Assembly: GCF_029626025.1 (NCBI RefSeq)
Contig: NZ_JARUBF010000001.1
Location: 186,001 to 250,000 of the forward strand
Direction of reading: 5' to 3'
Source: Solwaraspora sp. WMMD406
GTDB lineage: Bacteria; Actinomycetota; Actinomycetes; Mycobacteriales; Micromonosporaceae
Length of the DNA stretch: 64,000 bases
Of this stretch, positions 3,731 to 25,578 are shown in pieces. The position numbers and the translations under genes are program-made. The notes under the pieces were generated by a model. The model saw only the letters and a list, made by a program, of their open reading frames with translations, was not told where the DNA came from and ran no database searches. The stretch's first letter is position 1. Every line of letters starts with the position of its first letter.

Positions 3731-4672
3731 TCAGTGCGCCATGGCGGCGCTACGGTGTTCCTGCGGGCTCACGCCGTACACCCGCTTGAACGCCGAACTC
3801 AGGGCGAACCCGCTGCCGTAACCGACCTGCCGGGCGACCGCGTTGAGCGTGGCATCGGACTGGCGCAGCAGGTCGGCGGCCAGCGCCAGCCGCCACTCGG
3901 CCAGATAGGTCATCGGCGGGGTGCCGACGGCCTTGCGGAAACACTCCGCCAGCGTCGCCCGGGACACACCGACCTCGGCGGCGACCCGTGCCAACGTCCA
4001 GTCGTTCGCCGGATCCTCGTGGAACATCCGTAGCGCCTCGCCGGCCACCGGGTGCGCGTGCGCCCGGTACCAGGCCGGGGCTTCGCTGTCCGGGCGGTCG
4101 AACCACACGCGCAGTACCGAGATGAGCAGCAGGTCGAGCAGGCGGTCGAGTACGACGCCCTGTGCCGGTCCCTGTTTGGTGACTTCGCCGGCCAGCACCG
4201 AGATGAGCATCGAGTCCCAGGTGTCGTCGGAGATGACCAGCAGCGGCGGCAGTACGTCGAGCAGGCGCTGGCCGACGGCGCCGACCTCCTCGTACACCCC
4301 GAGCAGCATCTGGACCGACCCGTCGGGATTGCTGCCCCAGGTGCGGACTCCCAGCGACATCCGCTCCCGGAGCTCGACGCCGTCGGGCGTGAGGCACTGC
4401 TGTCCGGGGTGGACGATGACCTGCGGCGGAGTCGCCGTACCGTCGCTCATCACGTAGGGATCCGGCCCTCGGATGATGGCGACGTCACCTGGGCGCAGCC
4501 ACACCGGCTCGCCGTGGTCCGGCTCGACCCGAGCTTCGCCGCTCAGCATTGCCGCGAGGCAGAGCGGCGACTTGTCTTCGACCCGGATCGACCACGGCGG
4601 ATCCAGGATGGTACGGAGGAGGAAGGCACCACTGGCGCGCGGCCCTTCGAGCAGTCCTGCGAGTGCGTCCAC
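3731..4672 (-). CDS. AraC family transcriptional regulator
   Basis: 313-residue regulator with an N-terminal cupin sensor (AraC_binding_2 type: MLSGEARVEPDHGEPVWLRP, GDVAIIRGPDPYV) and a C-terminal pair of helix-turn-helix motifs (WTLARVAAEVGVSRATLAEC and LNAVARQVGYGSGFALSSAF, ending GVSPQEHR). The GTG at 4672 is chosen because the sequence before it is not conserved-looking; the frame itself stays open far upstream as antisense of the adenylation gene. It is divergent from an NmrA-like gene with 81 bases between. This pairing is common, and the regulator probably controls the neighbour in response to a small molecule. Confidence 0.92.
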   Translation of the reverse strand: MDALAGLLEGPRASGAFLLRTILDPPWSIRVEDKSPLCLAAMLSGEARVEPDHGEPVWLRPGDVAIIRGPDPYVMSDGTATPPQVIVHPGQQCLTPDGVELRERMSLGVRTWGSNPDGSVQMLLGVYEEVGAVGQRLLDVLPPLLVISDDTWDSMLISVLAGEVTKQGPAQGVVLDRLLDLLLISVLRVWFDRPDSEAPAWYRAHAHPVAGEALRMFHEDPANDWTLARVAAEVGVSRATLAECFRKAVGTPPMTYLAEWRLALAADLLRQSDATLNAVARQVGYGSGFALSSAFKRVYGVSPQEHRSAAMAH

Positions 4673-4753: not shown

Positions 4754-5587
4754 ATGACAGCAAACGAGAACACCACGTTGGTCCTCGGCGGTACCGGCCG
4801 GGTCGGCCGCCGGGTCATCCAGAGGCTCGTCGAGCGCGGCGTGAACGTGCGGGTCGGCTCCCGCAGCGGTACGCCTCCGTTCGACTGGGAGCAGCCGTCC
4901 ACCTGGGCCGACGCCTTCGTCGGTGTCAAGTCCGCCTACCTGATGTACTACCCGGAGATCGAATGGCCCGGCGCCAGCGAGGCCGTCGCCAAGGCGGCCC
5001 AGCTGGCCGTCGACGCGGGCGTCCAGCGGCTGGTCCTCCTGTCCGCCCGAAACCAGGACGAGGCCGACCGGTGTGAGGACGCGGTGACGCGCCTCCCCGT
5101 CGAGTGGACCATCGTCGCCCCGGCCTCGTTCAACCAGAACTTCGACGAGGGCGTCTTCCTCGAGCCGCTGCGCCAGGGCGTGCTGGCCCTGCCCTGTGGC
5201 GACAACGCCGATCCGTTCGTCGACGCCAACGACATCGCCGACGTCGCGGTGGCCGCCCTCACCGAGGACGGCCACGTGGGCGAGCGCTACGAACTGACCG
5301 GTCCTCGTCTGTGGACCTTCGCCGAAGGGGTCGCCGAGATCTCCCGGGCGACGGGTCGTGAGCTCAGCTACGTACCGATCACTCGCGACGAGTTCGCCGA
5401 CGCGATCGTCAAGGACGGGGCACCGCGCGAGTTCGCCGATCCACTGGCGACGCTCATCTCCGAGTTCTTCGACGGCCGCAACAGCTCGCTGGCTGACGGT
5501 GTCGAGCGTGCCCTGCACCGCAAGCCCCGCGACTTCGCGGACTGGGTGGCCGAAGTCGCTCCCACGGGCGTGTGGAACGCCGCCTAG
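4754..5587 (+). CDS. NmrA-like NAD(P)-binding oxidoreductase
   Basis: 278-residue atypical short-chain dehydrogenase of the NmrA/HSCARG group. The N-terminal LVLGGTGRVGRRVIQ is the GxxGxxG dinucleotide loop, followed by NVRVGSRSG where Arg residues favour NADP. It has no YxxxK active pair, as usual for NmrA-like proteins, which act as redox sensors or as reductases of small substrates (quinone or azo reductases are often annotated this way). It is transcribed away from the AraC gene and ends 84 bases before the adenylation gene, so it could be the first gene of the cluster operon or a separate AraC target. Confidence 0.88.
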   Translation: MTANENTTLVLGGTGRVGRRVIQRLVERGVNVRVGSRSGTPPFDWEQPSTWADAFVGVKSAYLMYYPEIEWPGASEAVAKAAQLAVDAGVQRLVLLSARNQDEADRCEDAVTRLPVEWTIVAPASFNQNFDEGVFLEPLRQGVLALPCGDNADPFVDANDIADVAVAALTEDGHVGERYELTGPRLWTFAEGVAEISRATGRELSYVPITRDEFADAIVKDGAPREFADPLATLISEFFDGRNSSLADGVERALHRKPRDFADWVAEVAPTGVWNAA

Positions 5588-5671
5588 TCCGCGGCCGCCG
5601 GTGATGCCCGTCGAGCAGCGGCGGGTGCCGGTCTTGCGGTGATGTTGCGGGTGCGCCCGCACGATTCCAGT

Positions 5672-7204
5672 GTGAAATCTACACGGCTCTGGACTTCGTT
5701 CGCTCGCCAGGTCGACACCCGTCCCCTCGCCACGGCCCTCGTGGCGGGGGACCGGCACATTTCCTACGGCGAGCTGGCCGACTTGGTGGCCGACGCCTCG
5801 GCCATCCTCGACCAGCTCGACACCACCGGCGGCGCGCCGATCGGCGTGCCCGCCACCAAGACGCCCCGAACCATCGCCATGGTCCTGGCATGCCTGCGGG
5901 CGGGCCTGCCGGTGGTGCTTCCCTCGGCTACGCTGCCCGCCGCCACGTCGCGGCAACTCCTCGCCCGGGCCGGGTGCCGCCACGTCGTCGACGCCGACGA
6001 CGCCGGCCCCGGCCCGGCGGGAGGTACGCCAGGCCCGGCCACCCCCGTCGACTCCGACGACGTCGCCTTCGTGCTCACCACGTCGGGGTCGACGGGTCTT
6101 CCCAAACTGGTGCCGCTCACCGCAGGCGCGGTCGAGCGCTTCGCCGACTGGGCCGCCGTACAGTTCGACCTCGGCCCCGACGCCTCGGTACTCAACTACG
6201 CCCCGCTGAACTTCGATCTCTGTTTCCTCGACGTCTGGGCCACGTTGCACCACGGCGGGCGCGTGGTCCTGGTCGATCCGGACGCCGCCACCAACGGGCG
6301 CTATCTGCTCGACACGATCGACGACAACGCCGTGACCGTCGTGCAGGCCGTACCAATGGCCCATCAGCTGATGGTCGACTCCGCCGGCGATTCCGCCGGC
6401 GATCCGGCCCGGCAGCTCACCACGGTCCGCCATGCGCTGTTCACCGGCGATCACATGCCCGCCCGGTGCCTGGCCCGGTTGCCCGCCGTGTTCCCCGCCA
6501 GCCGCTTCTACAACGTGTACGGCTGCACCGAGACCAACGACAGCTTCCTGCACGAGGTCGACCGGGACGCGCTGCCCACCGACGGCGTCCCGCTCGGCAC
6601 CCCGTTGCCCGGCGTCGAAGCGGTCGTCCTCGACGACCAAGGCACTGTGGTCAGGGGCGCGGGGCGCGGCGAGTTGGTCGTCGCCACGCCGTTCCAGTCC
6701 GCCGGCTACCTGGGTGCCGACCCGGCGGTACCTGGTCCTTTCGTCGACGCCCCCGTGGGCCGACCGCCTGGCACCGCCACTCGCTTCTACCGGACCGGCG
6801 ACGTCGTGCGCCGTGACGGTTCCGGCGTCCTGCACCTCGAAGGACGCACCGACTTCCAGGTGAAGGTGCGCGGCACCCGAGTCAACACGGCTGTGGTGGA
6901 ACAGGTACTGCTCGATCACGACGAGGTCGCCGAGGCCGTCGTCCTCGCTGTCACCGACGCGGTCGCCGGCCACCTGCTGCACGCGGTCCTGCGCCGCGAG
7001 CCAGGAGCGACCGTCAACACGCTCCGCCTCCGCGAGCACTGTGCTCGGTACCTGCCGACGGCGGCCATTCCGTCGACCCTCCGCCTGTCCGAGACCCCCT
7101 TGCCCCGCACGTCGACCGGCAAGGTGGACCGCCAGTTTCTCGTCAAGACCCTGAGTCTGCCTCGCCCCGAGGCGACCACCACCAGAAAGGAACCAGCACG
7201 ATGA
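5672..7204 (+). CDS. Stand-alone amino-acid adenylating enzyme, PltF/RedM-like (L-prolyl-AMP ligase type)
   Basis: Activates a carboxylic acid with ATP and loads it on a carrier protein. Adenylation motifs are in order: A3 TSGSTGLPKLVPLT, A5 NVYGCTETND, A7 YRTGDVVR, A8 GRTDFQVKVRG and A10 PRTSTGKVDRQFL with the catalytic Lys. The segment LNFDLCFLDVWATLHHGG and the GCTETNDSF motif closely recall the PltF/RedM group that makes L-prolyl-S-PCP. About 510 residues, no fused carrier domain. The GTG at 5672 gives the usual N-terminus (KSTRLWTSFARQ); an ATG at 5642 is also in frame. The stop overlaps the ATG of the carrier protein gene, so the enzyme and its partner are made together. The substrate is inferred to be proline or a related amino acid. 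Confidence 0.9.
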   Translation: MKSTRLWTSFARQVDTRPLATALVAGDRHISYGELADLVADASAILDQLDTTGGAPIGVPATKTPRTIAMVLACLRAGLPVVLPSATLPAATSRQLLARAGCRHVVDADDAGPGPAGGTPGPATPVDSDDVAFVLTTSGSTGLPKLVPLTAGAVERFADWAAVQFDLGPDASVLNYAPLNFDLCFLDVWATLHHGGRVVLVDPDAATNGRYLLDTIDDNAVTVVQAVPMAHQLMVDSAGDSAGDPARQLTTVRHALFTGDHMPARCLARLPAVFPASRFYNVYGCTETNDSFLHEVDRDALPTDGVPLGTPLPGVEAVVLDDQGTVVRGAGRGELVVATPFQSAGYLGADPAVPGPFVDAPVGRPPGTATRFYRTGDVVRRDGSGVLHLEGRTDFQVKVRGTRVNTAVVEQVLLDHDEVAEAVVLAVTDAVAGHLLHAVLRREPGATVNTLRLREHCARYLPTAAIPSTLRLSETPLPRTSTGKVDRQFLVKTLSLPRPEATTTRKEPAR

Positions 7205-7461
7205 AGCACGAAGGCGTCATCAAGAGCTTTCTGATCAGCGAGTTCATGCCCGACGTCACGGCGTCGGAACTCGCCAACGACTACGACCTGCTCGCCAACG
7301 GTGTGATCGACAGCCTCGGGCTGCTCAAGCTCATCGCCTGGATCGAGACCGAGTTCGACGTCACCGTCGACGACGCGGCACTGGACCCGGACAACTTCCG
7401 CACGGTCGACGCCATCGACGCCTTCCTGGCGCGGACGTCGGTCCTGGCCAAGGCGAGCTAG
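7201..7461 (+). CDS. Discrete acyl/peptidyl carrier protein (partner of the adenylating enzyme)
   Basis: 86-residue carrier protein. The phosphopantetheine site is Ser38 in the motif GVIDSLGLLKL, and the protein is acidic, with a predicted four-helix pattern typical of PltL-like carriers. It overlaps the adenylation gene by four bases (ATGA) and is followed two bases later by the TrpD-like gene. It probably carries the activated amino acid through oxidation and further steps rather than being part of a PKS, as reported for the kosinostatin pyrrolopyrrole unit. Confidence 0.93.
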   Translation: MKHEGVIKSFLISEFMPDVTASELANDYDLLANGVIDSLGLLKLIAWIETEFDVTVDDAALDPDNFRTVDAIDAFLARTSVLAKAS

Positions 7462-7463
7462 CC

Positions 7464-8513
7464 GTGCACGACGCGTACGCCGCCCTGCAGGCCGGTCGAC
7501 CGGTCGACACCGCGATGTGGTCATCGTTCTGGGACGAGCTCAGCGCCAACACGCTCGACCCGGGCGAACCAGCGGCGCTCATGGCAGGACTCAGCCTCGA
7601 CATGGTCGCCCCCGAGACGCTCATCGACCTGGTGCGATCGCTGCGCGCGCGGCGCACCGGGCCGGTCCGCTCCTTCGCCGGAGCGGTCAACGTGGTCGGC
7701 ACGGGCGGCGGCGCGTCGACGTTCAACGTCTCCACCGCTGCCGCCTTCGTCGCCGCCGCGCTCGGGGCACGGGTCGTGAAGACCGGGTCGCGGGCCTACG
7801 CCAGCCGGTACGGCTCGATCGACCTGCTCGATCGGCTCGGTATCCCGCTGACGAAGTCGTACGACGAAACGGCAGCGTCGCTGGCTCGTCACGGCGTCGC
7901 CTTCGCTGGCTACTTCGTGTACCCGGTCGAGCTGACCGTGCTGGCCCGGCGCATTCTGCCGCTGCCCATGCGGCCGTACGGCCGGGTGCTCAACACACTG
8001 GGCCCGTTCCTACCGGCGTTGCCGGGAACGCGTCAACTCACCGGCCTGCCGAACCCCGGACTTCTGCCACTGGCACGCCGGCTGGCGGAGGCGGTCGACG
8101 ACCGCGAGGTGTGGCTGTCCACCAACGACGTCGGCGCCGACGAGCTGATCAGCTTCGCCAACAACGTCATTCACTGCGGCTCGCCGGCGGCCGAGATCCG
8201 ACTCGGTCCTGGTGATCTGGGCACGGCCGACGGCAGCATGCCGGACCTGGCGGCGGCGGCCGAACCAGACCGGGTGGTCGAGCACTTCCTGGACGTCGTG
8301 TCCGGGCGGGCGGGCGAAGTCGCCGTCCAGACCGTGGCCCTCAACGCCGCCGCACTGGTGATCGCGTCCGATGCGGAGTCGAGGTGGCGCCCGACCGTCG
8401 CCGCGGCGATCGCGGCGATGCACGACGGGGCGGTGCGCGAGCTGGTCGACGCCGTACGGGCCAGCAGGTCGATCCCGGCTGCGCTGGTAAGCGAGGTGAC
8501 CTCCGGTGGCTGA
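7464..8513 (+). CDS. TrpD-like phosphoribosyltransferase (anthranilate phosphoribosyltransferase homologue)
   Basis: 349 residues over the full TrpD fold, GTG start. TrpD joins anthranilate to PRPP. The PRPP loop is conserved as VVGTGGGASTFNVSTAAAF, but the Asp of GTGGD is Gly83 here, and KHGNR is KTGSR with Lys106 kept and the substrate-contact His replaced by Thr107. The metal-binding Asp-Glu pair is present (Asp226-Glu227 in GADELISF), and an Arg corresponding to the anthranilate-binding Arg lies in PYGRVLNTLGP (Arg174). Thus PRPP and Mg binding look largely intact while the acceptor site has changed. It sits two bases after the carrier protein gene and overlaps the TrpA-like gene by eight. 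The acceptor is inferred to be a cyclic amine or imine rather than anthranilate. Confidence 0.88.
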   Translation: MHDAYAALQAGRPVDTAMWSSFWDELSANTLDPGEPAALMAGLSLDMVAPETLIDLVRSLRARRTGPVRSFAGAVNVVGTGGGASTFNVSTAAAFVAAALGARVVKTGSRAYASRYGSIDLLDRLGIPLTKSYDETAASLARHGVAFAGYFVYPVELTVLARRILPLPMRPYGRVLNTLGPFLPALPGTRQLTGLPNPGLLPLARRLAEAVDDREVWLSTNDVGADELISFANNVIHCGSPAAEIRLGPGDLGTADGSMPDLAAAAEPDRVVEHFLDVVSGRAGEVAVQTVALNAAALVIASDAESRWRPTVAAAIAAMHDGAVRELVDAVRASRSIPAALVSEVTSGG

Positions 8514-9321
8514 CGGCTTCTTTCCCCAGCCGCCTGGTTTGGCGGTGTTCCTCAACGCCGGTGACCCGCCGTTCGACGTGCTCGACGACGTCGCCGACAT
8601 GCTCGACGACCACGAGGTCGACGTCCTGGAGTTGGGCGTGCCGTTTCCCGATTCGATAAGCGACGGACCGGTGATCCGCCGGTCCGCTGATCGGGCGCTC
8701 GCCGCCGGGACCGAACTCGAGGACGCCCTTGCCTTCGTCGCGCGGTGCCGGGCCCGGCACCGTCATCTGCGGGTGGTCGTTCTCGCCGACTGGGCGCACA
8801 CCGTCCGGCCCCGCTCGATGGCGCAGGTCGTCACGGCCATCGCGGAATCCGGGGCGGCGGGGGCGCTGCTCCACGGGGCGCCGCCGCGGGCCCGCCCGGA
8901 CTTCTACGACCGGGCCGGCGCCGCCGGGTTGCCCGTCGTCACCACCTGCTATGCGTCCTCCTCTGCCGAGGTCGTGGCCGAGGCGGGGTCCCACGCCTCT
9001 GCCTACGTGTATCTGGTGACGCACTACGGCCCAAGCGGCGCCGGCCCCGCCCCTGACCCGGACGCACTCCGTGTCCCGATAGACGCCCTGCGGGCCCTGA
9101 CCGACGCGCCGATCGCCGCCGGCTTCGGGGTGCGCACGGCAGCCGACGTCGAGCGGGTGCGTGCGGCCGGTGCCGACGCCGCCGTCGTCGGCAGCACCAT
9201 CGTCGCCTGCGCCGAGGCGGCGTTCACCAAGGGCGGTGACGTCGTCGGCGACCTCGCCGACCTCGTCACCGGCCTACGTCCCCACCATCGCCGGTCCCTA
9301 CGACCGGTCAGCCACTCCTGA
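8506..9321 (+). CDS. TrpA-like protein (tryptophan synthase alpha chain homologue)
   Basis: 271-residue TIM barrel related to the alpha chain, which splits indole-3-glycerol phosphate into indole and glyceraldehyde 3-phosphate. Both catalytic acids are kept with the right spacing: Glu42 in LELGVPF and Asp53 in SDGP (Glu49 and Asp60 in the enteric enzyme). The phosphate-binding loop near the C-terminus is recognisable as AAGFGVRTAADV. No TrpB gene is present anywhere in the window, so it must act alone, like the BX1 and indole-glycerol-phosphate lyase types. A retro-aldol removal of a glycerol-phosphate tail from a pathway intermediate is the likely job. GTG start, overlapping the TrpD-like gene by eight bases. 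Confidence 0.88.
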   Translation: MADGFFPQPPGLAVFLNAGDPPFDVLDDVADMLDDHEVDVLELGVPFPDSISDGPVIRRSADRALAAGTELEDALAFVARCRARHRHLRVVVLADWAHTVRPRSMAQVVTAIAESGAAGALLHGAPPRARPDFYDRAGAAGLPVVTTCYASSSAEVVAEAGSHASAYVYLVTHYGPSGAGPAPDPDALRVPIDALRALTDAPIAAGFGVRTAADVERVRAAGADAAVVGSTIVACAEAAFTKGGDVVGDLADLVTGLRPHHRRSLRPVSHS

Positions 9322-9334
9322 GAGGAACGATCCG

Positions 9335-9709
9335 ATGATCGTACGCAGCCTGGACAGCGTCAAGACCGTCGACTGGGGCAACGGTTTGAGCCGCCGTTTC
9401 CTGCTGGAGGGCGACGGGCTCGGCTACACCCTCACCGACACCACGGTGCGTGCCGGCACCAAGTCGCTGCTCGAGTACCGCAACCACCTGGAGGCCTGCT
9501 ACTGCATCGAGGGTTCCGGCGAGGTCGTCGCCCTCGACGGCACGGCGCACCGCATCACCCCGGGCACGCTCTACGCGCTCGACAAGCACGACGCCCACTA
9601 CCTCGTCGCCGACCCGGACACCGACCTGCGCCTGGTGTGCGTGTTCTCGCCCGCGTTGCGGGGCGACGAGCGGCACAGCCTGGACGCCGCCGGCGCCTCC
9701 GCTTACTGA
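9335..9709 (+). CDS. Ectoine-synthase-like cupin, probable cyclic-amidine-forming enzyme
   Basis: 124 residues, clearly of the EctC family: MIVRSLDSVK at the N-terminus, NHLEACYCIEGSGEV in the first cupin motif and GTLYALDKHDAHYLV in the second. The Glu, Tyr and His that bind the active-site iron in EctC fall in these motifs and are all present. EctC closes the tetrahydropyrimidine ring of ectoine by an intramolecular condensation that creates a cyclic amidine. There are no EctA, EctB or EctD genes here, so osmolyte synthesis is unlikely, and the enzyme has probably been recruited to close an amidine ring. Start ATG preceded by gagagg. It lies between the TrpA-like and dehydrogenase genes in the same operon. 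Confidence 0.9.
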   Translation: MIVRSLDSVKTVDWGNGLSRRFLLEGDGLGYTLTDTTVRAGTKSLLEYRNHLEACYCIEGSGEVVALDGTAHRITPGTLYALDKHDAHYLVADPDTDLRLVCVFSPALRGDERHSLDAAGASAY

Positions 9710-9719
9710 GGCCGCAGGC

Positions 9720-10856
9720 ATGCGCACCTGGGACGAGGATCAGCTCGCACTGCGCGAGGGCATGCGCCAGTGGTGCCAAGACCTTGCCGGCGCCGAGCAC
9801 GACGCCATCGGGACCGGGTTTCCGTGGGACGCGTGGAAGCAGTTCCGCTCGTCCGGGATACTCGGCCTGCCGTTCGACCCGGCCCACGGTGGGGCCGGTG
9901 CCGACCTGCTCACCACCATGTTCGTACTGGAGGCTCTGGGCCACGGGTGCCGCGACGGCGGGCTGAGCTTCTCCTTGGCCACCACCCTGTGCAGCACCGG
10001 GGTCCCGCTGCAGCACTTCGGGACCCCGGAGCAGAAGGAGCGGTACCTGCCGCGGGTGTGCTCGGGCGACCTGATCGGTGCCCACGCCATCAGTGAGCCC
10101 GACACCGGGTCGGACGCTCTGAGCATGCGGACGATGGCGGTCCGCGACGGCGACCACTTCGTGCTCAACGGCAGCAAGAGCTTCGTGACCAACGGCCCCA
10201 TCGCCGACGTGGTCGTCGTCTACGCCCGCACTCGACCCGGTGGTGGGCCGATCGGCATCACCGCCTTCCTGGTCGACGCGGACACTCCCGGTTTCTCGGC
10301 TGGACAGCCGATCAAGAAAATGGGATTGACGTCGTCGCCGATGAGCGAGCTGTACTTCGACGACTGCCGGATACCGGCCGACCGGGCCATCGGCGGGATC
10401 GGGCGGGGCTTCCTCCTGCTCGAGCACGTCATGAAGTGGGAGATCCTCTGCTCGTTCATCATCAACGTCGGGGAAATGCAGCATCGGTTCGAACGCTGCC
10501 TGGAGTACGCCCGGACCCGCACGCAGTTCGGCAAGCCGATCGGCTCGTTCCAGGCGATCTCCCACAAGCTGGTCGACATGCGCATCCAGCTCGAGACGGC
10601 ACGCCGGTGGCTGTACGACACCGCCGAACGCCTCGTCGCTGGCGAAGACGTCACGACGGACGTGGCTATCAGCAAGTTGATCACCAGTGAGGCGAACGTG
10701 GCCTCGGGGCTGGCGGCGATCCAGATCTTCGGCGGCAACGGCTACATGTCCGAGTACGGCCTCGATCGCGAGTTGGCCAACGCGGTGGGCGGCACCATCT
10801 ACTCGGGGACGACCGAGATTCAGTACAACCGGATCTCCTCGATGTTGGGGCTGTGA
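9720..10856 (+). CDS. Acyl-CoA-dehydrogenase-like flavoenzyme, prolyl-PCP oxidase type
   Basis: 378-residue FAD enzyme with the acyl-CoA dehydrogenase fold. It has ISEPDTGSD in the FAD/substrate region, ARTRTQFGKPIGSFQ, and the C-terminal FGGNGY...GTTEIQ. The Glu used by short- and medium-chain enzymes (IYEGT) is Ser here (IYSGT). A candidate base, Glu241 in MKWEILCS, sits where isovaleryl-CoA dehydrogenase and the prolyl-PCP dehydrogenases (PltE, CloN3 group) have theirs. Together with a PltF-like ligase and a carrier protein this suggests oxidation of a carrier-bound cyclic amino acid, possibly only to an imine or enamine rather than a full pyrrole. It overlaps the TrpF-like gene by four bases. 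Confidence 0.88.
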   Translation: MRTWDEDQLALREGMRQWCQDLAGAEHDAIGTGFPWDAWKQFRSSGILGLPFDPAHGGAGADLLTTMFVLEALGHGCRDGGLSFSLATTLCSTGVPLQHFGTPEQKERYLPRVCSGDLIGAHAISEPDTGSDALSMRTMAVRDGDHFVLNGSKSFVTNGPIADVVVVYARTRPGGGPIGITAFLVDADTPGFSAGQPIKKMGLTSSPMSELYFDDCRIPADRAIGGIGRGFLLLEHVMKWEILCSFIINVGEMQHRFERCLEYARTRTQFGKPIGSFQAISHKLVDMRIQLETARRWLYDTAERLVAGEDVTTDVAISKLITSEANVASGLAAIQIFGGNGYMSEYGLDRELANAVGGTIYSGTTEIQYNRISSMLGL

Positions 10857-11584
10857 CCGTGCTGCTCAAGGTGTGCGGCGCTACCAGCCGCAACGACGTC
10901 GCCCTACTCGCGGCCGCAGGCGCCGACCTGATCGGTCTCTGGCATGGGATCCCGGATGGTCACGCGGACCTGTCCCTCGGCCGGTTCACCGCCCTGGCAC
11001 GGGCGTGTCGTGCCGAACCGGGGACCCCGGTACGGCCGGCCCCGGAACCGATGTTGGTCACGTTCCTGCGAGATCCGACCGCTGTCCTCGGCGCGGCCCG
11101 CGCCGGCGACGTGCGGTGGCTGCAACTGCATGGCTACCAACCGCCGGGCATGGTGGCGGCGATCAAGCGAGCGTGGCCGGAGGCCACAGTGGTCAAGGTG
11201 CTGCACGTCACGGGTGACGTCTGCGCCGAGCGTCTGCTGCTGGCCTCGTACGAGCGGGCGGGGACCGACGTGTTCCTGTTCGACGCCACGGGTACCGGGG
11301 GGCGGGTCGGGAGTACCGGCCTGTCACTCGACCCCGATGTGGTGATCGATCTGGCGGAGGCGACCACCCGGCCGTTCCTCCTCGCCGGGGGCATCTCGGC
11401 GGCCACCCGCGAGCGATACGAGAAGGTCGCCGCCCACCCCCGCTTCGCGGGTGTCGACGTCGACACGGCGGCGCGGGATGTCACGGGAGCGTTCTGCGCC
11501 GACAGCGTCAGCGGTCTCCGACGCCATTGGCGTGCCGTCCGGTCCGGTCGGGGTGACCCGGCTTCGGTCGGGGCGGCTGCTTGA
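10853..11584 (+). CDS. TrpF-like protein (phosphoribosylanthranilate isomerase homologue)
   Basis: 243-residue TIM barrel. TrpF carries out an Amadori rearrangement of a phosphoribosyl amine. The general base Cys8 is in LLKVCGATS (family KICGIT), and the general acid Asp144 is in FLFDATGTGG. The phosphate-binding GG motif appears as LAGGISAAT, and the C-terminal GVDVDTAARD replaces the usual GVDVSSGVE. Catalytic residues are thus intact while the substrate-side loop differs. GTG start overlapping the dehydrogenase stop as GTGA. It would rearrange the product of the TrpD-like enzyme. Confidence 0.9.
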   Translation: MTVLLKVCGATSRNDVALLAAAGADLIGLWHGIPDGHADLSLGRFTALARACRAEPGTPVRPAPEPMLVTFLRDPTAVLGAARAGDVRWLQLHGYQPPGMVAAIKRAWPEATVVKVLHVTGDVCAERLLLASYERAGTDVFLFDATGTGGRVGSTGLSLDPDVVIDLAEATTRPFLLAGGISAATRERYEKVAAHPRFAGVDVDTAARDVTGAFCADSVSGLRRHWRAVRSGRGDPASVGAAA

Positions 11585-11733
11585 TCGTGGCGACCACGTC
11601 TCCCGGCGACACCGTCGTACGGACGCCGGGGGGCGTGGCGCCATGTCCGCTTGAGGGCGGTGGTGAGTGGCCGGGCGAGCCGCGCACCGACCGATCCGGA
11701 ATCGCTCGTCCACAAGCCAGAGGAGGTCGCCTG
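11585..11733 (+). other. Spacer between trpF-like and trpC-like genes
   Basis: About 150 bases without a convincing gene, unusual in this otherwise tightly overlapped operon. The frame of the TrpC-like gene is open back to 11581, but the residues are Gly/Pro/Arg-rich and unlike the alpha-0 helix of indole-glycerol-phosphate synthase. A good ribosome site (agaggagg) stands just before 11734. Confidence 0.5.
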
Positions 11734-12450
11734 ATGGCACCACCGTTCGTTGACGCCCTGATCGGCGCCCGACGTCCCGTGATCATGGAGTTGAAGCCTC
11801 GTTCGGCCGACGGCGACGATCTGTTCCGTGGCCGGTCACCGGCTGAGATCGTGGCCCGGTACGAGGCCGCAGGCGCTCCCTGCCTGTCGGTCGTCACCGG
11901 CCGTTGGTTCGGGGGTGACACCGACCTGCTGGCCGAGGTCGTCGGACGCACTGATCTGCCGGTGCTGCAGAAGGACTTCGTCACCAACGCCGGCCAGCTC
12001 CGCACGGCGAGCGAGCTCGGCGCGTCCGCGGTACTTCTCACGGCGACGCTACTACCGAAAGTCGCGCTGGCGCGGTTGGCCGAGCGGGCTCTCGCGCTCG
12101 GCCTCACCCCGTTCATCGAGGTCGCCAACGCTGCCGAGGTCGAGGCGCTTCCGGCGGGTGAGGGGTGTGTGGTGGCCGTCAACAACAGGGACATCCGAAT
12201 CCGGGAACGTGGGGATACCGACATCGACCGCAGTCTCCGACTGCTGCCGGCGGTGCGGCGCACGGGGTCGCCGTGCCCGGTCAGCGCCAGCGGTATCGAC
12301 GACCCGCAGGTGGCAGCCGGACTGCTCAATGCCGGCTTCGCCGGACTGCTGGTCGGGACACACCTGCTGCGGGCCGACCGCCTTGAGTCATGGTGCGAGA
12401 AGCTCGACGACCTGCGTTCAGCGTCGCCCGCGCCGCGTCCAGTGGGCTGA
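11734..12450 (+). CDS. TrpC-like protein (indole-3-glycerol-phosphate synthase homologue)
   Basis: 238-residue TIM barrel. The family closes a pyrrole ring from an enol-phosphate with loss of CO2. Catalytic residues can be placed: Glu19 and Lys21 in IMELKPRS, Lys80 in VLQKDFV, Glu129 in FIEV, and Asn150/151 in VNNRD. The second Glu of the SESG motif is replaced by Ala185 (SASGI). The N-terminal alpha-0 helix of the family is almost absent, since the barrel begins within 15 residues. The start has a strong ribosome site (agaggagg). The gene's last 125 bases overlap the convergent regulator gene. Likely ring closure in the pathway, but with altered acid-base chemistry. Confidence 0.88.
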   Translation: MAPPFVDALIGARRPVIMELKPRSADGDDLFRGRSPAEIVARYEAAGAPCLSVVTGRWFGGDTDLLAEVVGRTDLPVLQKDFVTNAGQLRTASELGASAVLLTATLLPKVALARLAERALALGLTPFIEVANAAEVEALPAGEGCVVAVNNRDIRIRERGDTDIDRSLRLLPAVRRTGSPCPVSASGIDDPQVAAGLLNAGFAGLLVGTHLLRADRLESWCEKLDDLRSASPAPRPVG

Positions 12451-15376
12451 GGGACAGGTCGTCCCACTCCACGGCGCAGGGCACACCGAGCTCGTCGGCG
12501 GCCGCGATCACCCGGGAGGCGAGGTCGTTGGCTTCGAGGTACCGCCGCCCCGCGACGAGGACACGGGCGACCCGCAAGGGGCGCTCCTGGTCGTACGGGT
12601 CGAGTTCCATGGCCGACTCGAGTCGGCTCATCGCCTCGTCCATGTCGCCCGCGTCGAGAGCGGCTGTCAACACGATGTCGAGCAGTCCGAGCACCCGTCG
12701 ACGGACGACCTCGCGGCGCTGGGCGATGCCGTCGTCGTAAAGGTCGTCGGGCAGCAGCGGCCCGCCGTAGGCGGCGAGGGCGACACGTGCCCGGGAGACC
12801 CGCTCGTTGTGCTGTGCGGCGGCGGCCGCCCGGGCCAGGTCCTCGAACGAGTGCAGGTCGACCTTGCACGAGGACAGCGACAGCAACTGCCCCGTACGGT
12901 TGATCAGCGTGCCGTAGGTGGCGCGGGCCCGGGTCAGTACGTTCTTGAGCCGACGCTGGCCGACCCCGGGCATCTCACCCGGCCACAGCGTCTCGACCAC
13001 GGTCTCGACCCGAACGGACCCGCCCGCGAGCACGAGATGCTTCACCAGTTGGCTGACCCGGCCGGTCCCGGGGCAGACTCCGATGCCCTGACGGACCTCG
13101 AACCCACCCAGCACCCGTACCGCGTAGTGGCCGCCGTTGGGCGAGGCGGCGGTCACGACGGCCGGGGGCAGTCGGATGGCCGATCGCAGGACGCCGACCA
13201 CGCGCTGCTCGCGGCGGTCGGGCAGGTCGGGATGACCGAGGCTGGCGGCACGGTCCAGGGCGGCCAGGAGGCACTGGTGGGCGGCGTCCGCCTCGCCGGC
13301 GGCGTGGCGGACGTAGCCGGTCAGCAGTTCGGCTTTCCACTGCAGAGAAGGGGCGATCTCGCCGTCTTTGAGCATGCGCTGCAGCACGTCCGCCGCCTCG
13401 GGCTCGCCCCGACGGGCACCGATGAATGCCTCGGTCAGCGCGAGAGTCACCGGGTCCTCGATGCGGTGCTCTCGAGCGGCGGCAAGCAGCCGGGCCGACG
13501 GCGCGTCGGCCCCGACCACGGCGCAGGCGTCGGCGGCCTCGCACAGGAACAGCAGACCGCCGCCGTCGTGGATCAGCTGGCCTAGGTGCGCCTCGGCGCG
13601 GGCCAGTTGGTCGAGCACTCCGGACATGTCATGGTCGTTGGACGCGACGATCAGGCGGGTCCAGGCGGCGTGCCCGGTCACCCAGTCGATCCGCAGTACC
13701 TCGGCGAGCCGCATGGCGTCGTCGAGGATGGCGAGTGACCGCTCGCCCTCACCGCCCAGGGCCAGCAGCCGGGCCTCCATGACCAGGCACAACATGCGGT
13801 CGAACTGGGTGTCGCTGGCGGCACCGAGCCAGCGCAGCAGAACGGCACCTTCGCCGGTCTTGCCCAGGGCGGACAGGACCTCGGTGGCGAGGCTCCGCTG
13901 GACCCCGGCGACGCGTCCGGGTTCACCCAGCTCGCCCCACGTGATGGCGGCCTGGCGCATGGCGTTCTCGGCCCGGCGCAGGCTCGGTCGGTCGGAGCGG
14001 TCGGACAACGCCATGCCCAGGGCCTCGAGCAGGCTGGCCTGGGCACGGGTGCCTTCGGGCGCACTGGCGAGAAGCCGCTCGACCTGGGCGAGCACGTCGA
14101 GGTCGCGCAGCTGTGCCCGCTGGATCAGCCATTCGCTTTCGACTTCGAGGGCAAGGTCGTCGTCGTCGTCGCGCTCGCGCACCACACGCAGAGCCCGACC
14201 GATGACCTCTCGTTCCTCGGCGAGCTGGCCGACGTTGCGGTGGATCCGGGCCAGGTGCAGCAGCACCTGGGGGGCGGCTTCGGCCGCCGGCCCGAGGCGG
14301 GCCATCAGCTGGATGAACTCGACCGGGTCGAGCTGGTTGATCCGTGCGGTGGACAGCTTCGCGATGAGGGTGGCCGCCTGTTCGGGCTCGCCGCTGTCGA
14401 CCAGCAGACTGGCCGCGGCCAGCTCGGCACCCTGCGACATCAGCAGTGGGGCGGCCCGCTGGGCGATGGCCGGGTCGAGTGGTGCGAGCGCGGACAACGT
14501 TTCCTTCGACTCGCTGCACAGCCGCGACCAGCCGTCGGCGCCGACGGCGAACGGAATGCCCGCCCGGATGAGGCGTCGCAGCAGCCCCGGCTGGCCCAAC
14601 CCTTCGACGAGACTGTCGTTGACCACCGGAAACGCGGCCACCTGGGTCAGCAGATATCGGTCGGCCGGGTCAAGGTCACAGGCGTAGTGGTCCATCAGCT
14701 GACGGATCAGGTTGGTGTGCCGGAGCAGCACGGTGGCGGCCGCCATGCGGTCGGACGTCCGGGCGAGCCGCCGCAGCATCACCAGCAGCAACGCCGCCCA
14801 TCCGCCAGAGAGGTCGTGCAGGGTGGTAGCGAGCCGTTCGCCGTCTTGGTCGCCGACCTCCAGCCGGGCGAGGGCCATCGCCTCGGCCGGGGTGAGACGC
14901 AGGTCCTGGGTGTTGAACCGCTCGGCGGTGCCCCGAAACTCCATGGCAGCCAGCGGTGCCGGCAGCAGCCGGCTGCTGACCAGGATGCGCACCGGCTGCG
15001 CACCGTCCTGGGCCAGGCCGGCCAGCCAGGACGCGGCCTCGTCGGTGAGGGCCTCGGCGTTGTCGATCAGCAGCAAACCTGGCCTGGGCGATGTGGCCAG
15101 CAGCTCGCCTACCCGTCCGGCGGCGCCGTTGGCCGACATCCGTGGCCATCCGGTCCGCTGGTCGGCCGCGTCAAGGATCGCCGAGGTGAGCTCGTCGACC
15201 GTGACCGGGTGGTCGCGTGGCAGGCACACCTCGATGCCACTACTGACACTGGACCGGACCTGTCCGACAAGGACGCTTTTACCGAAACCCCCGCCTGCCT
15301 CTATGAGGACCGAGTGTCTCGCGTTGACAATCTCCTCCACGAGCCGCTGACGCGGGACGAAAGGCATTAGCGCCAT
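12326..15376 (-). CDS. Large ATPase regulator with C-terminal BTAD (SARP-type) domain
   Basis: 1016 residues. An N-terminal P-loop ATPase (GGGFGKS at about 28-34, Walker B-like LLLIDNAE near 100, MalT/LuxR-LAL style) is followed by about 600 residues of helical repeats. From about residue 770 there is a winged-helix domain (RVLGGFEVRQG, then KHLVLAGGSVRVETVVETLWPG and RRLKNVLTRAR) with a BTAD domain to the end. The order is the reverse of AfsR/SARP proteins, in which the DNA-binding and BTAD parts come first. It converges on the TrpC-like gene with a 125-base overlap of the coding ends. It is probably a cluster activator that couples ATP or ligand binding to transcription. Confidence 0.85.
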   Translation of the reverse strand: MALMPFVPRQRLVEEIVNARHSVLIEAGGGFGKSVLVGQVRSSVSSGIEVCLPRDHPVTVDELTSAILDAADQRTGWPRMSANGAAGRVGELLATSPRPGLLLIDNAEALTDEAASWLAGLAQDGAQPVRILVSSRLLPAPLAAMEFRGTAERFNTQDLRLTPAEAMALARLEVGDQDGERLATTLHDLSGGWAALLLVMLRRLARTSDRMAAATVLLRHTNLIRQLMDHYACDLDPADRYLLTQVAAFPVVNDSLVEGLGQPGLLRRLIRAGIPFAVGADGWSRLCSESKETLSALAPLDPAIAQRAAPLLMSQGAELAAASLLVDSGEPEQAATLIAKLSTARINQLDPVEFIQLMARLGPAAEAAPQVLLHLARIHRNVGQLAEEREVIGRALRVVRERDDDDDLALEVESEWLIQRAQLRDLDVLAQVERLLASAPEGTRAQASLLEALGMALSDRSDRPSLRRAENAMRQAAITWGELGEPGRVAGVQRSLATEVLSALGKTGEGAVLLRWLGAASDTQFDRMLCLVMEARLLALGGEGERSLAILDDAMRLAEVLRIDWVTGHAAWTRLIVASNDHDMSGVLDQLARAEAHLGQLIHDGGGLLFLCEAADACAVVGADAPSARLLAAAREHRIEDPVTLALTEAFIGARRGEPEAADVLQRMLKDGEIAPSLQWKAELLTGYVRHAAGEADAAHQCLLAALDRAASLGHPDLPDRREQRVVGVLRSAIRLPPAVVTAASPNGGHYAVRVLGGFEVRQGIGVCPGTGRVSQLVKHLVLAGGSVRVETVVETLWPGEMPGVGQRRLKNVLTRARATYGTLINRTGQLLSLSSCKVDLHSFEDLARAAAAAQHNERVSRARVALAAYGGPLLPDDLYDDGIAQRREVVRRRVLGLLDIVLTAALDAGDMDEAMSRLESAMELDPYDQERPLRVARVLVAGRRYLEANDLASRVIAAADELGVPCAVEWDDLSLSPLDAARATLNAGRRASRTMTQGGRPAAGVSRPAVRRSRH

Positions 15377-18193: not shown

Positions 18194-20194
18194 TTACTTC
18201 ACGGCTCCGAGCTCGTGGTGGTGCTGACTCGTTGCCCCAGGCTCCGCCTGTTGCCAGGAGGTGACGTGACGACGTCGGGCGTCGCTGACCTGTTCGTCGA
18301 CCGCCTGCCGGACGACGGTGTGCCGAAATTCGTAGATCGCCGGCCGGTACGGGTGTCGGGCGCCTGCGGCGGTCACCTCGGTGAGGATCCCGACCTCCAG
18401 CAGTGCCTCGAGCGCGTCCAGGGCCGACAGCACGTCCAAGCCGGCCGCGCCAGCGACCGCGTCGAAGGCGAAGGACGGCCCGGTGACCGCCGCGACCTGG
18501 AGCAGCCGGGTGGCGTTCTGTCCGATGGCGGCCTGCTTGGCGGCCACCAGCCGCGCGACCGCCGGTGGTACCGAGTCCGAGCCGGCCTTGTGCCGCAACA
18601 TCTCGACCAGCATGAACGGGTTCCCGCCGCTGCGGGCATGCGCCCGGCGGATCGGGTCCGCGTCGGTGCCGGCCGTGTCGACGCTCTCCCTGGTGGTCGC
18701 ACCGTCGGCGACGATCGATCCGGTGTCCAGCTTCTGCGTGAGTGCCCGGGTGGAAGCGAAGTCGAGGCCGCCGAGGGCTATCTCGGTCCCTTCGCCGACG
18801 TGCTCGAACGGAAGCATCGCCTCGTCCAGGCTGGCCCGCACCCGTCGTCGGTCGGAGGTCGGCAGGTCGTTGCGGGCTGCGGCGACAACGCACAGCCGGG
18901 CATCCGCGGTGGTACGCAGCACATGTCGCAGCAGCGCCGCCGTCTGCGGATCGGCCCAATGGACGTCGTCGATGAGCAACGCGCAGGGCCGCTCGCTGGC
19001 CGCCACCAGCAGCAACTGGGTCAACGCGGCGAACAGGATCGACTGTTCCGGCAGTTCACCGGGCGGACAGGGCCCGCCGAGTGAGGGGAGCAGCAGCCGC
19101 AACGGACCCCGTACGGCCGGGGAAACCGCTTCGAGTGGGTCGTCGGGCGAGGCCGCGACGTAGCCGTCCAGCGCCTCCACGAAAGGCTGGTACGGGATCA
19201 TCGCGCCCTCGTCGCATCGGCCCACCAGCAGCAGCCCGCCCTCGGTGGCCATCGCCTCCCCGGCCTCGCGCAGCAGACGTGTCTTGCCGATGCCGGACTC
19301 GCCCGTGACCAGGACGAACTGCCGACTTCCTCGGCTGGCCCGGGCCCAGGCCCCGGTCAGCATCGCCATCTCGTGATGGCGCCCGACGAACGGAACCGGA
19401 CGGTGCTCGGCGGTGGTCCTGGTACCCGGCGCGGTCGGTGCCGACGAAGGGCCGAGCAACGCCAGATAGGCGGCCTCGGTCTCCGGCGACGGATCGACGC
19501 CCAATTCCTCGGCGAGGTACCGGCGCAGTCGCTGGTACGCCCGCAGGGCCTCGCCCCGGTTTCCCATGGCCTCGCGTACCGCCATGAGGCAACGGTGCGC
19601 ACTCTCCCGCTCTGGTGCCCGGGTCGTCGCCTCCTCGGCGAGGAGAGCCGCCCGGTTGTGGTCCCCCGTGCCCGTCGCCGCCCGGCTGGCGATCTCGAGG
19701 GCCGTGACCAGGCACTCGGTCAACCGCTCGCGCTGTTCGCCGACCCAGTCGCCCTCGTGCTCGGACAGAAACGGGAAACGCAGCCGATCCGCCGCCTCCG
19801 TGGCGAGCCGATCGGCCCCGGCCAGGTCGCCGGCGTTGAGCGCCTGCTGGGCCGCTGCCACCGAACGGGTCGCGTACCGCACGTCGACCAGCACTCCTTT
19901 GCCCAGTGCGAGCACGTACCGCCCACCTCGTTTGACCAGGGGGTTCGTCTCCTCGGCCTGCAGCGGTCCGACGAACGCCCGCAGCCGGCTCACCAAGGTA
20001 CGCAGGGCCGACGCCCAGGTGGGCGGAAGCTCGCCTGGCCAGATCACGTCAGCCAGCTCGTGCCGCGTCACCCCCTCGGGACCAGCCAGGACGAGACGCG
20101 CGAACGCCACTCTGGTCTGTGCGCTCTGAAGGTGGTGCACGGTGCCCGCGCACCGCACGGCCATCGGTCCCAGCAGTTCGATCGCAGTGTCCAT
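18194..20194 (-). CDS. SARP-type regulator with AAA ATPase domain, apparently 3'-truncated
   Basis: 666 residues. An OmpR-type winged helix (about 1-90: MDTAIELLGPMAVR, ELADVIWPGELPPTWASAL) is followed by a BTAD domain (to about 245) and an ATPase with GESGIGKT and CALLIDDVHWADPQ. AfsR/SARP proteins of this kind normally continue with several hundred residues of TPR repeats. Here the sequence stops shortly after FRHTVVRQAVDEQV, where the repeat part should begin, and the insertion-element transposase starts within 40 bases. The ATG at 20194 is chosen because it begins the domain; the frame is open to 20389. It is divergent from the carrier protein gene at 20443 and is probably the activator of the KASIII operon. 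Confidence 0.88.
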   Translation of the reverse strand: MDTAIELLGPMAVRCAGTVHHLQSAQTRVAFARLVLAGPEGVTRHELADVIWPGELPPTWASALRTLVSRLRAFVGPLQAEETNPLVKRGGRYVLALGKGVLVDVRYATRSVAAAQQALNAGDLAGADRLATEAADRLRFPFLSEHEGDWVGEQRERLTECLVTALEIASRAATGTGDHNRAALLAEEATTRAPERESAHRCLMAVREAMGNRGEALRAYQRLRRYLAEELGVDPSPETEAAYLALLGPSSAPTAPGTRTTAEHRPVPFVGRHHEMAMLTGAWARASRGSRQFVLVTGESGIGKTRLLREAGEAMATEGGLLLVGRCDEGAMIPYQPFVEALDGYVAASPDDPLEAVSPAVRGPLRLLLPSLGGPCPPGELPEQSILFAALTQLLLVAASERPCALLIDDVHWADPQTAALLRHVLRTTADARLCVVAAARNDLPTSDRRRVRASLDEAMLPFEHVGEGTEIALGGLDFASTRALTQKLDTGSIVADGATTRESVDTAGTDADPIRRAHARSGGNPFMLVEMLRHKAGSDSVPPAVARLVAAKQAAIGQNATRLLQVAAVTGPSFAFDAVAGAAGLDVLSALDALEALLEVGILTEVTAAGARHPYRPAIYEFRHTVVRQAVDEQVSDARRRHVTSWQQAEPGATSQHHHELGAVK

Positions 20195-20254
20195 GAGTGG
20201 GCCGCCCCCGCAGTCGGAAGTTGCTTGTCTGGTGTCGACAGGGTCCGGCGCGGC

Positions 20255-20288
20255 GGTACCAGCGGGGTACCGGCGTCGCGGTGGTACC
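20255..20288. promoter_or_regulatory. Repeated ggtacc motifs, SARP-box candidate
   Basis: The hexamer ggtacc occurs at 20255-20260, 20266-20271 and 20283-20288, between the divergent SARP and carrier protein genes. The first two starts are 11 bases apart, the spacing seen for SARP direct repeats. Binding by the neighbouring regulator is inferred from position. Confidence 0.4.
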
Positions 20289-20442
20289 GCCGGTCCGTCG
20301 ACCACGGCCGTCGCAGAGCGCCGCGCCGGCCAGCGGCGGATCGACGTGTACGGGCGGGACGAGGTCTGAGGCTTGCGAATCGCTTGCACCGGCGCTCGTA
20401 CGTTCCATCCGTCAGATCGATCACGATGACCAGGAGTGCGCC

Positions 20443-22498: not shown

Positions 22499-22528
22499 GA
22501 CATTTCAACCACTGTGGAGGACAGCGAT

Positions 22529-25504: not shown

Positions 25505-25578
25505 CCCGGCCGACGGCCTTCTCCACCCACCGGTCGACGGCCCACCCGACCCCTCAAGCCCAGCAAGGAGACCATGCC

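Follow-up and report, generated by a model that had tools for sequence, protein, structure and literature searches.

The cassette and its genes

The 64,000-nucleotide stretch of DNA analyzed here (the window) comes from Solwaraspora sp. WMMD406 (contig NZ_JARUBF010000001.1, positions 186,001 to 250,000) and contains, at 5639-12450 on the + strand, a single tight run of eight genes that we refer to as the cassette. An earlier reading of the letters alone (the original prediction) had named eight gene types in this run and had proposed that they form a tryptophan-like, carrier-bound line for a bicyclic amidine, as in kosinostatin. Pfam and NCBIfam profile searches, performed on the open reading frames (ORFs) of 3.7-26.4 kb plus a few from 26.5-64 kb, matched every one of the eight, and the eight-gene observation is thus confirmed:

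5639..7204, + strand: stand-alone adenylation (A) enzyme; AMP-binding, 202 bits, 1.8e-59; specificity positions DLLQLTVDSK
7201..7461, + strand: stand-alone carrier protein (PCP); PP-binding, 24 bits, 4.3e-05; phosphopantetheine Ser38
7464..8513, + strand: TrpD-like phosphoribosyltransferase (phosphoribosyl pyrophosphate, PRPP, onto amine); Glycos_transf_3, 115 bits, 5e-33; TIGR01245, 137 bits against a cut-off of 199
8506..9321, + strand: TrpA-like retro-aldolase; Trp_syntA, 141 bits, 6e-41; above its own NCBIfam cut-off
9335..9709, + strand: EctC-like cupin, candidate cyclic-amidine former; Ectoine_synth, 125 bits, 4e-36; NCBIfam 138.5, cut-off 128
9720..10856, + strand: acyl-CoA-dehydrogenase (ACAD)-type flavoenzyme; best NCBIfam models RedW, 376 bits, and PigA, 370 bits (cut-offs 650 and 500)
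10853..11584, + strand: TrpF-like Amadori isomerase; PRAI, 31 bits (4e-7); NCBIfam 50 bits, below cut-off
11734..12450, + strand: TrpC-like ring-closing enzyme; IGPS, 130 bits, 1e-37; without the N-terminal alpha-0 lid; below the NCBIfam cut-off

The run had also been described as tightly overlapped, which holds for A/PCP and ACAD/TrpF (4 bp each) and for TrpD/TrpA (8 bp). The remaining gaps measure 2-13 bp, except that TrpF and TrpC lie 149 bp apart: translation of the TrpC-like gene almost certainly starts at the ATG at 11734 rather than at 11581, because a Shine-Dalgarno sequence (AGAGGAGG) lies just 5′ of it and this start agrees with relatives, and the two genes therefore do not overlap. 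The statement that the cassette lacks TrpE, TrpG, and TrpB also stands, in that none turned up among the profiled ORFs of 3.7-26.4 kb, although no search aimed at these three families was made. TrpF is the weakest homologue by sequence, with a PDB sequence search match of only E 0.2. Its AlphaFold model, however, has a predicted local distance difference test score (pLDDT) of 92.7, and its 11 best PDB matches are all phosphoribosylanthranilate isomerases (PRAI), one of them bifunctional. Where the cassette ends, the - strand carries a large regulator gene that runs into the 3′ end of TrpC (overlap at 12326-12450), and the same region of Micromonospora KC213 shows a similar arrangement.

Relation to kosinostatin and distribution among genomes

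Published papers are cited below by PubMed Central number. Micromonospora okii TP-A0468 (locus L100) produces kosinostatin (PMC8698034), an antitumour antibiotic with a rare two-ring amidine, and Streptomyces spiroverticillatus (L086) carries version B of the kosinostatin cluster (PMC13099267). In both strains the eight genes recur in identical order, with a type II ketosynthase alpha (KS-alpha) motif nearby. A comparison with the kosinostatin cluster had been suggested as a check on the original prediction, and the M. okii proteins are 48-69% identical to those of the window (A 51, PCP 50, TrpD 50, TrpA 54, EctC 69, ACAD 62, TrpF 48, and TrpC 59%). Because the producer holds the same eight genes, we have very little doubt that the cassette is the same module as the one in kosinostatin. 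We take it to be the module grouped as kstB and kstC in the kosinostatin cluster, where the origin of the pyrrolopyrrole is given as nicotinic acid and ribose (PMC7918784, Table 5 included).

A scan of species genomes with the TrpC-like alignment identified 90 relatives; the 80 best of these were taken with names and, together with five genome-relative loci, gave 85 rows. Two pairs of rows, G034/L057 and G104/L087, have identical proteins and each represent a single locus, which leaves 83 distinct loci. Matches by tblastn below fixed bit thresholds were counted as absent, and a missing neighbour is weak evidence because flank lengths differ among loci. All eight genes are present in 68 rows and collinear in 65, corresponding to 66 and 63 of the 83 distinct loci. 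With the same gene order recurring at 63 of 83 other loci, the association, whose co-occurrence elsewhere had been proposed as a check, is far beyond chance. The genome-relative loci contain the eight genes in the same order without exception (5/5), with the ACAD and TrpF genes of G061 separated by an additional one, whereas L083, L091, and L105 are complete but not collinear. Among the 17 incomplete rows are short stretches or contig ends (L033, L043, L058, L072, L074, L089, and L102); L073 has no A and no TrpF match, the TrpD match of L088 falls just below threshold (102 bits), L084 retains TrpF, TrpC, and a partial ACAD, and L067, L095, and L101 have TrpC only of the eight.

Genera with cassette loci include Streptomyces, Kitasatospora, Micromonospora, Nocardiopsis, Lentzea, Actinokineospora, Kibdelosporangium, Rhodococcus, and Arthrobacter, and some matches come from metagenome-assembled genomes labelled Solirubrobacterales, Dormiibacterota, and Acetobacteraceae. 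With the TrpC query, two loci each were found in six strains of Streptomyces or Kitasatospora (L075/L076, L077/L092, L056/L090, L068/L082, L073/L096, and L069/L107). For the whole kosinostatin cluster, 18 putative carriers have been reported in 34,389 actinobacterial genomes (PMC13099267). Set against this number, 83 distinct loci with the module, whole or in part, indicate that it is clearly far more widespread than kosinostatin itself.

The cassette is distinct from primary tryptophan and ectoine genes

The 7.16-Mb genome encodes other homologues of TrpD (at 3058829), TrpC (at 3341197), and TrpA (at 3343277 and 5780074). For these three families, the cassette proteins are only 38% (TrpC), 39% over 158 amino acids (TrpD), and 28% (TrpA) identical to the other copies, whereas the original prediction had named a relation of more than 60% to primary tryptophan enzymes as the result that would speak against it. 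One of the two TrpA homologues, at C1:5780074-5780757, is additional to both the copy near TrpC and the cassette copy. When the TrpD-like protein was searched against 151 genomes (150 relatives and its own), five other genomes gave 279-333 bits, while the other matches listed reached at most 77 bits; by this measure the cassette TrpD forms a subfamily of its own. TrpD, TrpF, and TrpC score below their NCBIfam cut-offs, although TrpA scores above its own. Together with the low identity to the other copies and with no TrpE, TrpG, or TrpB among the profiled ORFs of 3.7-26.4 kb, this does not describe a primary tryptophan operon. A reading as primary tryptophan genes was rejected on the low identity, the separate subfamily, and the other genomic copies. 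An osmolyte (ectoine) function was likewise rejected, since the only EctC-like gene of the genome sits within the cassette.

Conserved and altered residues

The row counts given here include the window and the two loci that are counted twice. The A-enzyme specificity positions, which were placed by motif with GrsA as reference, read D-L-L-Q-x-T-(I/V/L)-D-S-K across rows, with D235, Q278, D330, and S331 in 74/74 and T301 in 71/74. Given that this code is near-invariant while the A enzymes share a median pairwise identity of 53% and have 81 near-invariant columns out of 479, all of them probably load one and the same substrate, which is predicted to be an alpha-amino acid. Asp235 is the anchor of the alpha-amine and a sign of an alpha-amino acid substrate in A domains. 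Aryl-acid A domains lack this residue; the aryl-acid type that would be expected for a nicotinate-activating enzyme was not seen in any of the 74 rows, M. okii included. In the PDB, the A enzyme has the stand-alone prolyl-carrier ligase 6o6e among its top matches, ranked after multidomain chains of nonribosomal peptide synthetases (NRPS).

Catalytic residues are retained throughout the cassette. The phosphopantetheine Ser of the PCP is present in 77/77 rows, equivalents of the TrpA catalytic acids E49 and D60 in 75/76 (one gap), those of TrpF C7 and D126 in 82/82, and those of TrpC E51, K53, K110, E159, and N180 in 86/86; the TrpF positions labelled H31, G149, and R43 are variable. In contrast, positions that contact a carboxylate have changed. 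The position of TrpC Arg182 is occupied by Lys in 82 of 86 rows (Arg in two, Gly and Ala in one each), and that of TrpD Asn109, which contacts the anthranilate carboxylate, by Ser in 74 and Ala in two of 76 (structural roles from PMC9835598, PMC10520873, and PMC7681013). These changes would fit substrates without a carboxylate. The TrpC-like proteins also lack the alpha-0 lid, an arrangement that suits a substrate arriving on a carrier.

For the ectoine synthase of Paenibacillus lautus (P. lautus), ten residues have been named as contacting metal, substrate, or product, among them Asn38, which directly contacts the substrate carboxylate (PMC6344544). Nine of the ten (W21, S23, R25, T40, Y52, E57, Y84, H92, and F106) are kept in all 77 rows of EctC-like proteins, while Asn38 is replaced in all 77 (Thr 72, Cys 3, Ala 2); at an eleventh position, Cys104, 72 rows have Cys and five have Ser. 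The EctC-like cupin therefore appears to be an ectoine synthase homologue that likely catalyzes the same type of reaction, though probably not on the same substrate. As the carboxylate-contacting residue is lost in every row, a thioester, that is, a carrier-bound substrate, is a natural reading. The ACAD falls below both equivalog cut-offs for prolyl-PCP dehydrogenases (376 of 650 bits for RedW and 370 of 500 for PigA).

A proposed glutamine-based route to the pyrrolopyrrole

We infer the substrate, the order of steps, and the final product from the genes, families, residues, common cassette, and A code that were observed. In the proposed route, the A enzyme would load L-glutamine onto the carrier, after which the EctC-like cupin would join the alpha-amine to the side-chain amide in a dehydrative ring closure that yields the cyclic amidine 5-amino-3,4-dihydro-2H-pyrrole-2-carbonyl-S-carrier. 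The RedW/PigA-like flavoenzyme would remove two hydrogens, a single two-electron oxidation sufficing to aromatize the ring to 5-aminopyrrole-2-carbonyl-S-carrier. The TrpD-like enzyme would then add phosphoribose to the exocyclic amine, which stands in for the amine of anthranilate, and the TrpF-like enzyme would carry out the Amadori shift. Closure of the second ring, at the free beta-carbon, would fall to the TrpC-like enzyme; as this nucleophilic carbon bears no carboxylate, nothing but water would be lost. The TrpA-like enzyme would then release glyceraldehyde 3-phosphate to leave pyrrolo[2,3-b]pyrrole-2-carbonyl-S-carrier. By arithmetic, the acyl mass on the carrier would run through 128, 110, 108, 320, 320, 302, and 132. 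In the class of loci to which the window belongs, a ketosynthase III (KSIII), an acyltransferase (AT), and a FabG-type enzyme may then extend the acyl group by a malonate unit.

Carrier-bound glutamine is suggested by the A code with Asp235, by the replacement of EctC Asn38, and by a known side reaction of EctC: the Halomonas elongata (H. elongata) enzyme makes the five-membered cyclic amidine ADPC (5-amino-3,4-dihydro-2H-pyrrole-2-carboxylate) from glutamine, if with very low efficiency, and the equilibrium between the free compounds lies far on the glutamine side (PMC5924519). The five carbons and two nitrogens of glutamine plus C1 and C2 of ribose account exactly for the pyrrolo[2,3-b]pyrrole ring and its carbonyl. 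Precedent for the TrpC-like step is also available, in that indole-3-glycerol phosphate synthase (IGPS) closes the ring on a decarboxylated substrate without decarboxylation, albeit 41,000-fold worse (PMC7681013). We are fairly confident that the product is carrier-bound and of pyrrolopyrrole type, and consider glutamine a reasonably probable precursor. As the best explanation overall we favor, with moderate confidence, a kosinostatin-type module that has been placed in a different cluster and works by glutamine-based, carrier-bound chemistry. The tryptophan-like line of the original prediction thus passes the tests by sequence (28-39% identity, co-occurrence, and the same genes in the producer) and is supported in amended form; it had placed amidine closure last, whereas the EctC-like step more likely comes early, on glutamine.

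Several observations weigh against this proposal. Reportedly, Ma and colleagues in 2013, in the one published study of the module known to us, assigned the kosinostatin pyrrolopyrrole to nicotinic acid and ribose from feeding experiments. We know of no A-domain code that matches DLLQxTxDSK exactly, and A-domain codes are predictions only. The nicotinic acid origin is also stated in PMC5321127 and PMC8400222. Among the enzymes, the window TrpC is one of the two rows that retain Arg at the Arg182 position, Lys at this position could still bind a carboxylate, and the Ser211 position is Gly in 7/86. The carboxylate-binding Arg of TrpD (R164 in the Ss and R193 in the Mtb enzyme) is ambiguous because an insertion before the FNxLGP motif can be aligned in two ways; it may be kept in a shifted register (R162, 67/76), and loss of carboxylate recognition in TrpD is therefore not proven. 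In the EctC-like proteins, the change of Asn38 to Thr could reflect something other than carboxylate loss, Arg25, a water-mediated carboxylate contact, is kept, and three residues are inserted after Trp21. Some loci also depart from the common cassette: L078 and L063 are near-complete but have no EctC and no TrpA match, respectively, and L104 and L108 have only PCP, TrpD, TrpF, and TrpC of the eight. Finally, in Streptomyces alkaliphilus (S. alkaliphilus; L030) the next 7 kb beyond the cassette half of the cluster (11750-18779) consist of unrelated-looking genes, with none of the genes from KSIII to thioesterase that lie downstream in the window, and this tail is therefore not always beside the cassette.

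EctC might instead act first, on free glutamine, with the A enzyme then loading the cyclic amidine, a proline analogue, and with the later steps as proposed above. The high-ranking match of the A enzyme to the prolyl-carrier ligase 6o6e and the closeness of the ACAD to prolyl-PCP dehydrogenases suggest that the pocket may hold a ring, in which D330 could hold the amidinium, and EctC can make this amidine from free glutamine (PMC5924519). We nevertheless regard this order as unlikely, given that the residue that binds a free carboxylate, Asn38, is replaced in 77/77 rows and that the free equilibrium strongly favors glutamine (PMC5924519).

Still less likely, in our estimation, is that the same module makes the same product from carrier-loaded nicotinic acid, with contraction to a pyrrole preceding the tryptophan-like steps. 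The invariant Asp235, which is found in the M. okii enzyme as well and which aryl-acid A domains lack, argues against such a substrate, and this origin would assign no clear role to the EctC-like enzyme or to the second nitrogen of the amidine. To our knowledge, none of the eight families is known to contract pyridine rings. What speaks for nicotinic acid is the published kosinostatin assignment (PMC7918784, PMC8400222, PMC5321127), together with the presence of the same eight genes in the producer.

An order near that of the original prediction, in which proline is loaded, oxidized to pyrrole-2-carbonyl, and annulated by the tryptophan-like enzymes before EctC forms the amidine, would account for the prolyl ligase match and for an ACAD nearest to the prodigiosin-type proline route. 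We consider it improbable because an Amadori shift is difficult for a pyrrole nitrogen on chemical grounds, the second nitrogen has no source, the ACAD scores far under the RedW and PigA cut-offs, and Q278, D330, and S331 form a polar pocket. That the cassette represents primary-metabolism tryptophan genes that were duplicated or are decaying is hardly credible despite the homology to TrpD, TrpA, TrpF, and TrpC, since other TrpD, TrpC, and TrpA homologues at 28-39% identity exist elsewhere in the genome and the cassette genes form their own subfamily, have intact catalytic residues, and are linked with A, PCP, EctC, and ACAD at 66 of 83 loci.

Partner genes and phylogeny

Returning to the module as a whole, we grouped its loci by partner genes, with flank families profiled on representatives and counts made over 86 rows, window and duplicates included. 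Class S (L054, L039, L053, and others) comprises 46 of the 86 rows, with a FabF-type ketosynthase (KS) in 42, a MaoC-like dehydratase in 45, and a BioF-like oxoamine synthase in 39; in the 37 rows with all three they lie upstream of the A gene. We take this combination of a BioF-like enzyme and a KS to be reminiscent of prodigiosin logic, on a different ring. Class K has the type II KS-alpha motif beside the module (L100, L086, L021, and L028), and L046 was assigned to it by name, from a Nocardiopsis with an almost complete kosinostatin cluster (PMC7918784). The six loci of class T have a TrpB-like family (685 and 691 bits in the two profiled) and a UbiD-family gene (6/6), which in three of them (L060, L098, and L078) are joined by a transglutaminase-core gene and a UbiX-type flavoprotein, families that were profiled at L046 and L060, respectively. 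Several loci of classes K and T have a member of the transglutaminase-core family positioned between their ACAD and TrpF genes (11 loci; for example, L086 8560-9324, L046 8665-9324, and L078 7251-7958). A reduced Actinokineospora variant (L104, L108, and L095) has TrpC, TrpB-like, and UbiD genes and no A, EctC, ACAD, or TrpA match. Class N is defined by an NRPS condensation-carrier family (L056, L069, L076, L082, L092, and also G085; profiled at L082 only), and class W consists of the window, L029, L030, and L031. This NRPS family accounts for part of the 20 cases with other flanks.

A tree built on the concatenated sequences of all eight proteins at 67 loci (G034 and G104 left out) places the four class W loci in one clade (support 1.0) and classes W, K, T, and N together in a clade of 23 (support 0.995), apart from a remaining clade of 44 that is mostly class S. 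The class N loci form one clade together with L041. Judging from these gene sets, the cassette appears to have been recruited into at least five kinds of clusters.

We know of one antibiotic family with this pyrrolopyrrole ring system, and this rare-looking chemistry is probably common and largely uncharacterized. Our findings suggest that an unusual ring is built in numerous soil bacteria by a second chemistry that resembles tryptophan biosynthesis. The UbiD, UbiX-type, and TrpB-like genes of class T are as expected if the module makes a heteroaromatic acid, the decarboxylated form of which could replace indole, with serine as its partner. We therefore advance, tentatively and as a possibility rather than a preference, a second, carrier-bound tryptophan-like pathway that makes pyrrolo[2,3-b]pyrrole from glutamine and ribose in at least five kinds of clusters and that in L060, L098, and L078 (Lentzea and Actinokineospora; L078 without an EctC match) is completed by the transglutaminase-core, TrpB-like, UbiD, and UbiX-type genes to a free pyrrolopyrrole isostere of tryptophan; the published nicotinic acid origin would then be wrong. 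For a biosynthesis whose enzymes do not fit the published precursor, the glutamine-based route offers a concrete mechanism. The findings also raise the prospect of a new tryptophan-like amino acid and of enzymes with which bicyclic amidines could be made.

The gene cluster around the cassette

Comparison by blastn and tblastn with the three class W strains (about 80% identity), namely Micromonospora KC213, Streptomyces WZ.A104, and S. alkaliphilus, identified common stretches at 3.7-15.4 and 18.2-26.4 kb. The cluster thus spans about 3.7-26.4 kb, beyond the cassette, and includes the following features:

3731..4549, - strand: AraC-type regulator (Cupin_6 + HTH_18; Pfam); 85-91% identity in KC213, WZ.A104, and S. 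alkaliphilus
4778..5587, + strand: NmrA-like NAD(P)-binding reductase (Pfam); 80-85% identity in KC213, WZ.A104, and S. alkaliphilus
12326..15376, - strand: large BTAD/STAND regulator (Pfam); 77-79% identity in three relatives; convergent with TrpC and overlapping its 3′ end
16034-18187: ISAzo13-family transposase; 402 bits, cut-off 200; between two regulators
18194..20389, - strand: SARP-type regulator (BTAD + AAA; Pfam); ~73% identity in KC213 and WZ.A104
20436..21734, + strand: FabH-type KSIII; NF006829, 319 bits; Cys-His-Asn triad residues present; 82-83% identity in KC213 and WZ.A104; true start probably near 20733
21677..22498, + strand: FabG-type ketoreductase (short-chain dehydrogenase/reductase, SDR); TIGR01830, 242 bits, cut-off 298; 84-85% identity in KC213 and WZ.A104
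22514..23740, + strand: AT with malonyl-type motif GHSAG ... FHS; Acyl_transf_1, 3e-33; 73% identity in KC213
23792..25504, + strand: FAD-dependent oxidase (FAD_binding_4 + Cytokin-bind; Pfam); ~82% identity in KC213 and WZ.A104
25435..25953, + strand: SnoaL-like/DUF4440 protein (Pfam); 68-69% identity in KC213 and WZ.A104
25966..26415, + strand: 4HBT-type thioesterase (Pfam); 72-78% identity in KC213 and WZ.A104

The transposase stretch (15.4-18.2 kb) is missing from KC213 and WZ.A104. KC213 carries the whole gene set in another order, and WZ.A104 all of it but the AT, at which point its contig stops. In S. alkaliphilus just one half is present, running from AraC through the first BTAD regulator. 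Genes related to the KSIII and to the FAD oxidase occur in some class S loci as well (L066, G029, and G034) and are therefore not unique to class W. Outside the common cluster, the window encodes a B12-binding radical SAM protein (30516-32138, - strand).

The original prediction had also stated that the window has no type II polyketide synthase (PKS) genes and that its product should differ from kosinostatin. The first statement holds for the ketosynthases as far as the searches reached: a motif scan for KS-alpha and the chain-length factor (CLF) found none in the window (matches at L069 and L088 were taken for chance and dropped), none of the five genome matches to the PF04673 cyclase lies there, and neither does any of the 10 PF00109 matches listed of the genome's 26. 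It does not hold for polyketide-type genes in general, as KSIII, AT, FabG, and SnoaL genes occupy 20.4-26.0 kb. The window was accordingly rejected as a complete kosinostatin cluster, and with no KS-alpha found and different flanking genes, its product likely differs from kosinostatin. A literature search, to which subscription papers were mostly inaccessible, found no report of the module outside kosinostatin or of this cluster. The window thus has the kosinostatin pyrrolopyrrole module in a different cluster, as one member of a large family.

Comparison with known systems

Compared with the module of kosinostatin (quinocycline B) in M. okii, the window has the same class of A-domain code (DLLQLTVDSK against DLLQVTLDSK in M. 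okii), but no KS-alpha was found in it; it instead carries the KSIII, FabG, AT, FAD oxidase, SnoaL, and thioesterase genes and belongs to the separate, fully supported clade of four. With the prolyl-PCP route (PigI/PigA and RedM/RedW), the cassette shares a stand-alone A enzyme, a PCP, and a carrier-specific ACAD homologue; it differs in the polar A pocket (Q278, D330, S331), in an ACAD below both cut-offs, and in the addition of EctC and tryptophan-like enzymes. Reaction types and catalytic residues are those of TrpD, TrpF, TrpC, and TrpA in primary tryptophan biosynthesis, whereas no TrpE/G or TrpB was found in the cluster, the substrate would be carrier-bound, TrpD and the majority of TrpC rows have altered carboxylate contacts, and TrpC has no alpha-0 lid. 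Like ectoine synthase, the EctC-like protein is a cupin, probably amidine-forming, with the iron ligands (E57, Y84, and H92) and nine of ten contact residues in place; unlike it, it has lost Asn38 in 77/77 rows, and it is the sole EctC-like gene of its genome and stands in a tryptophan-like cassette.

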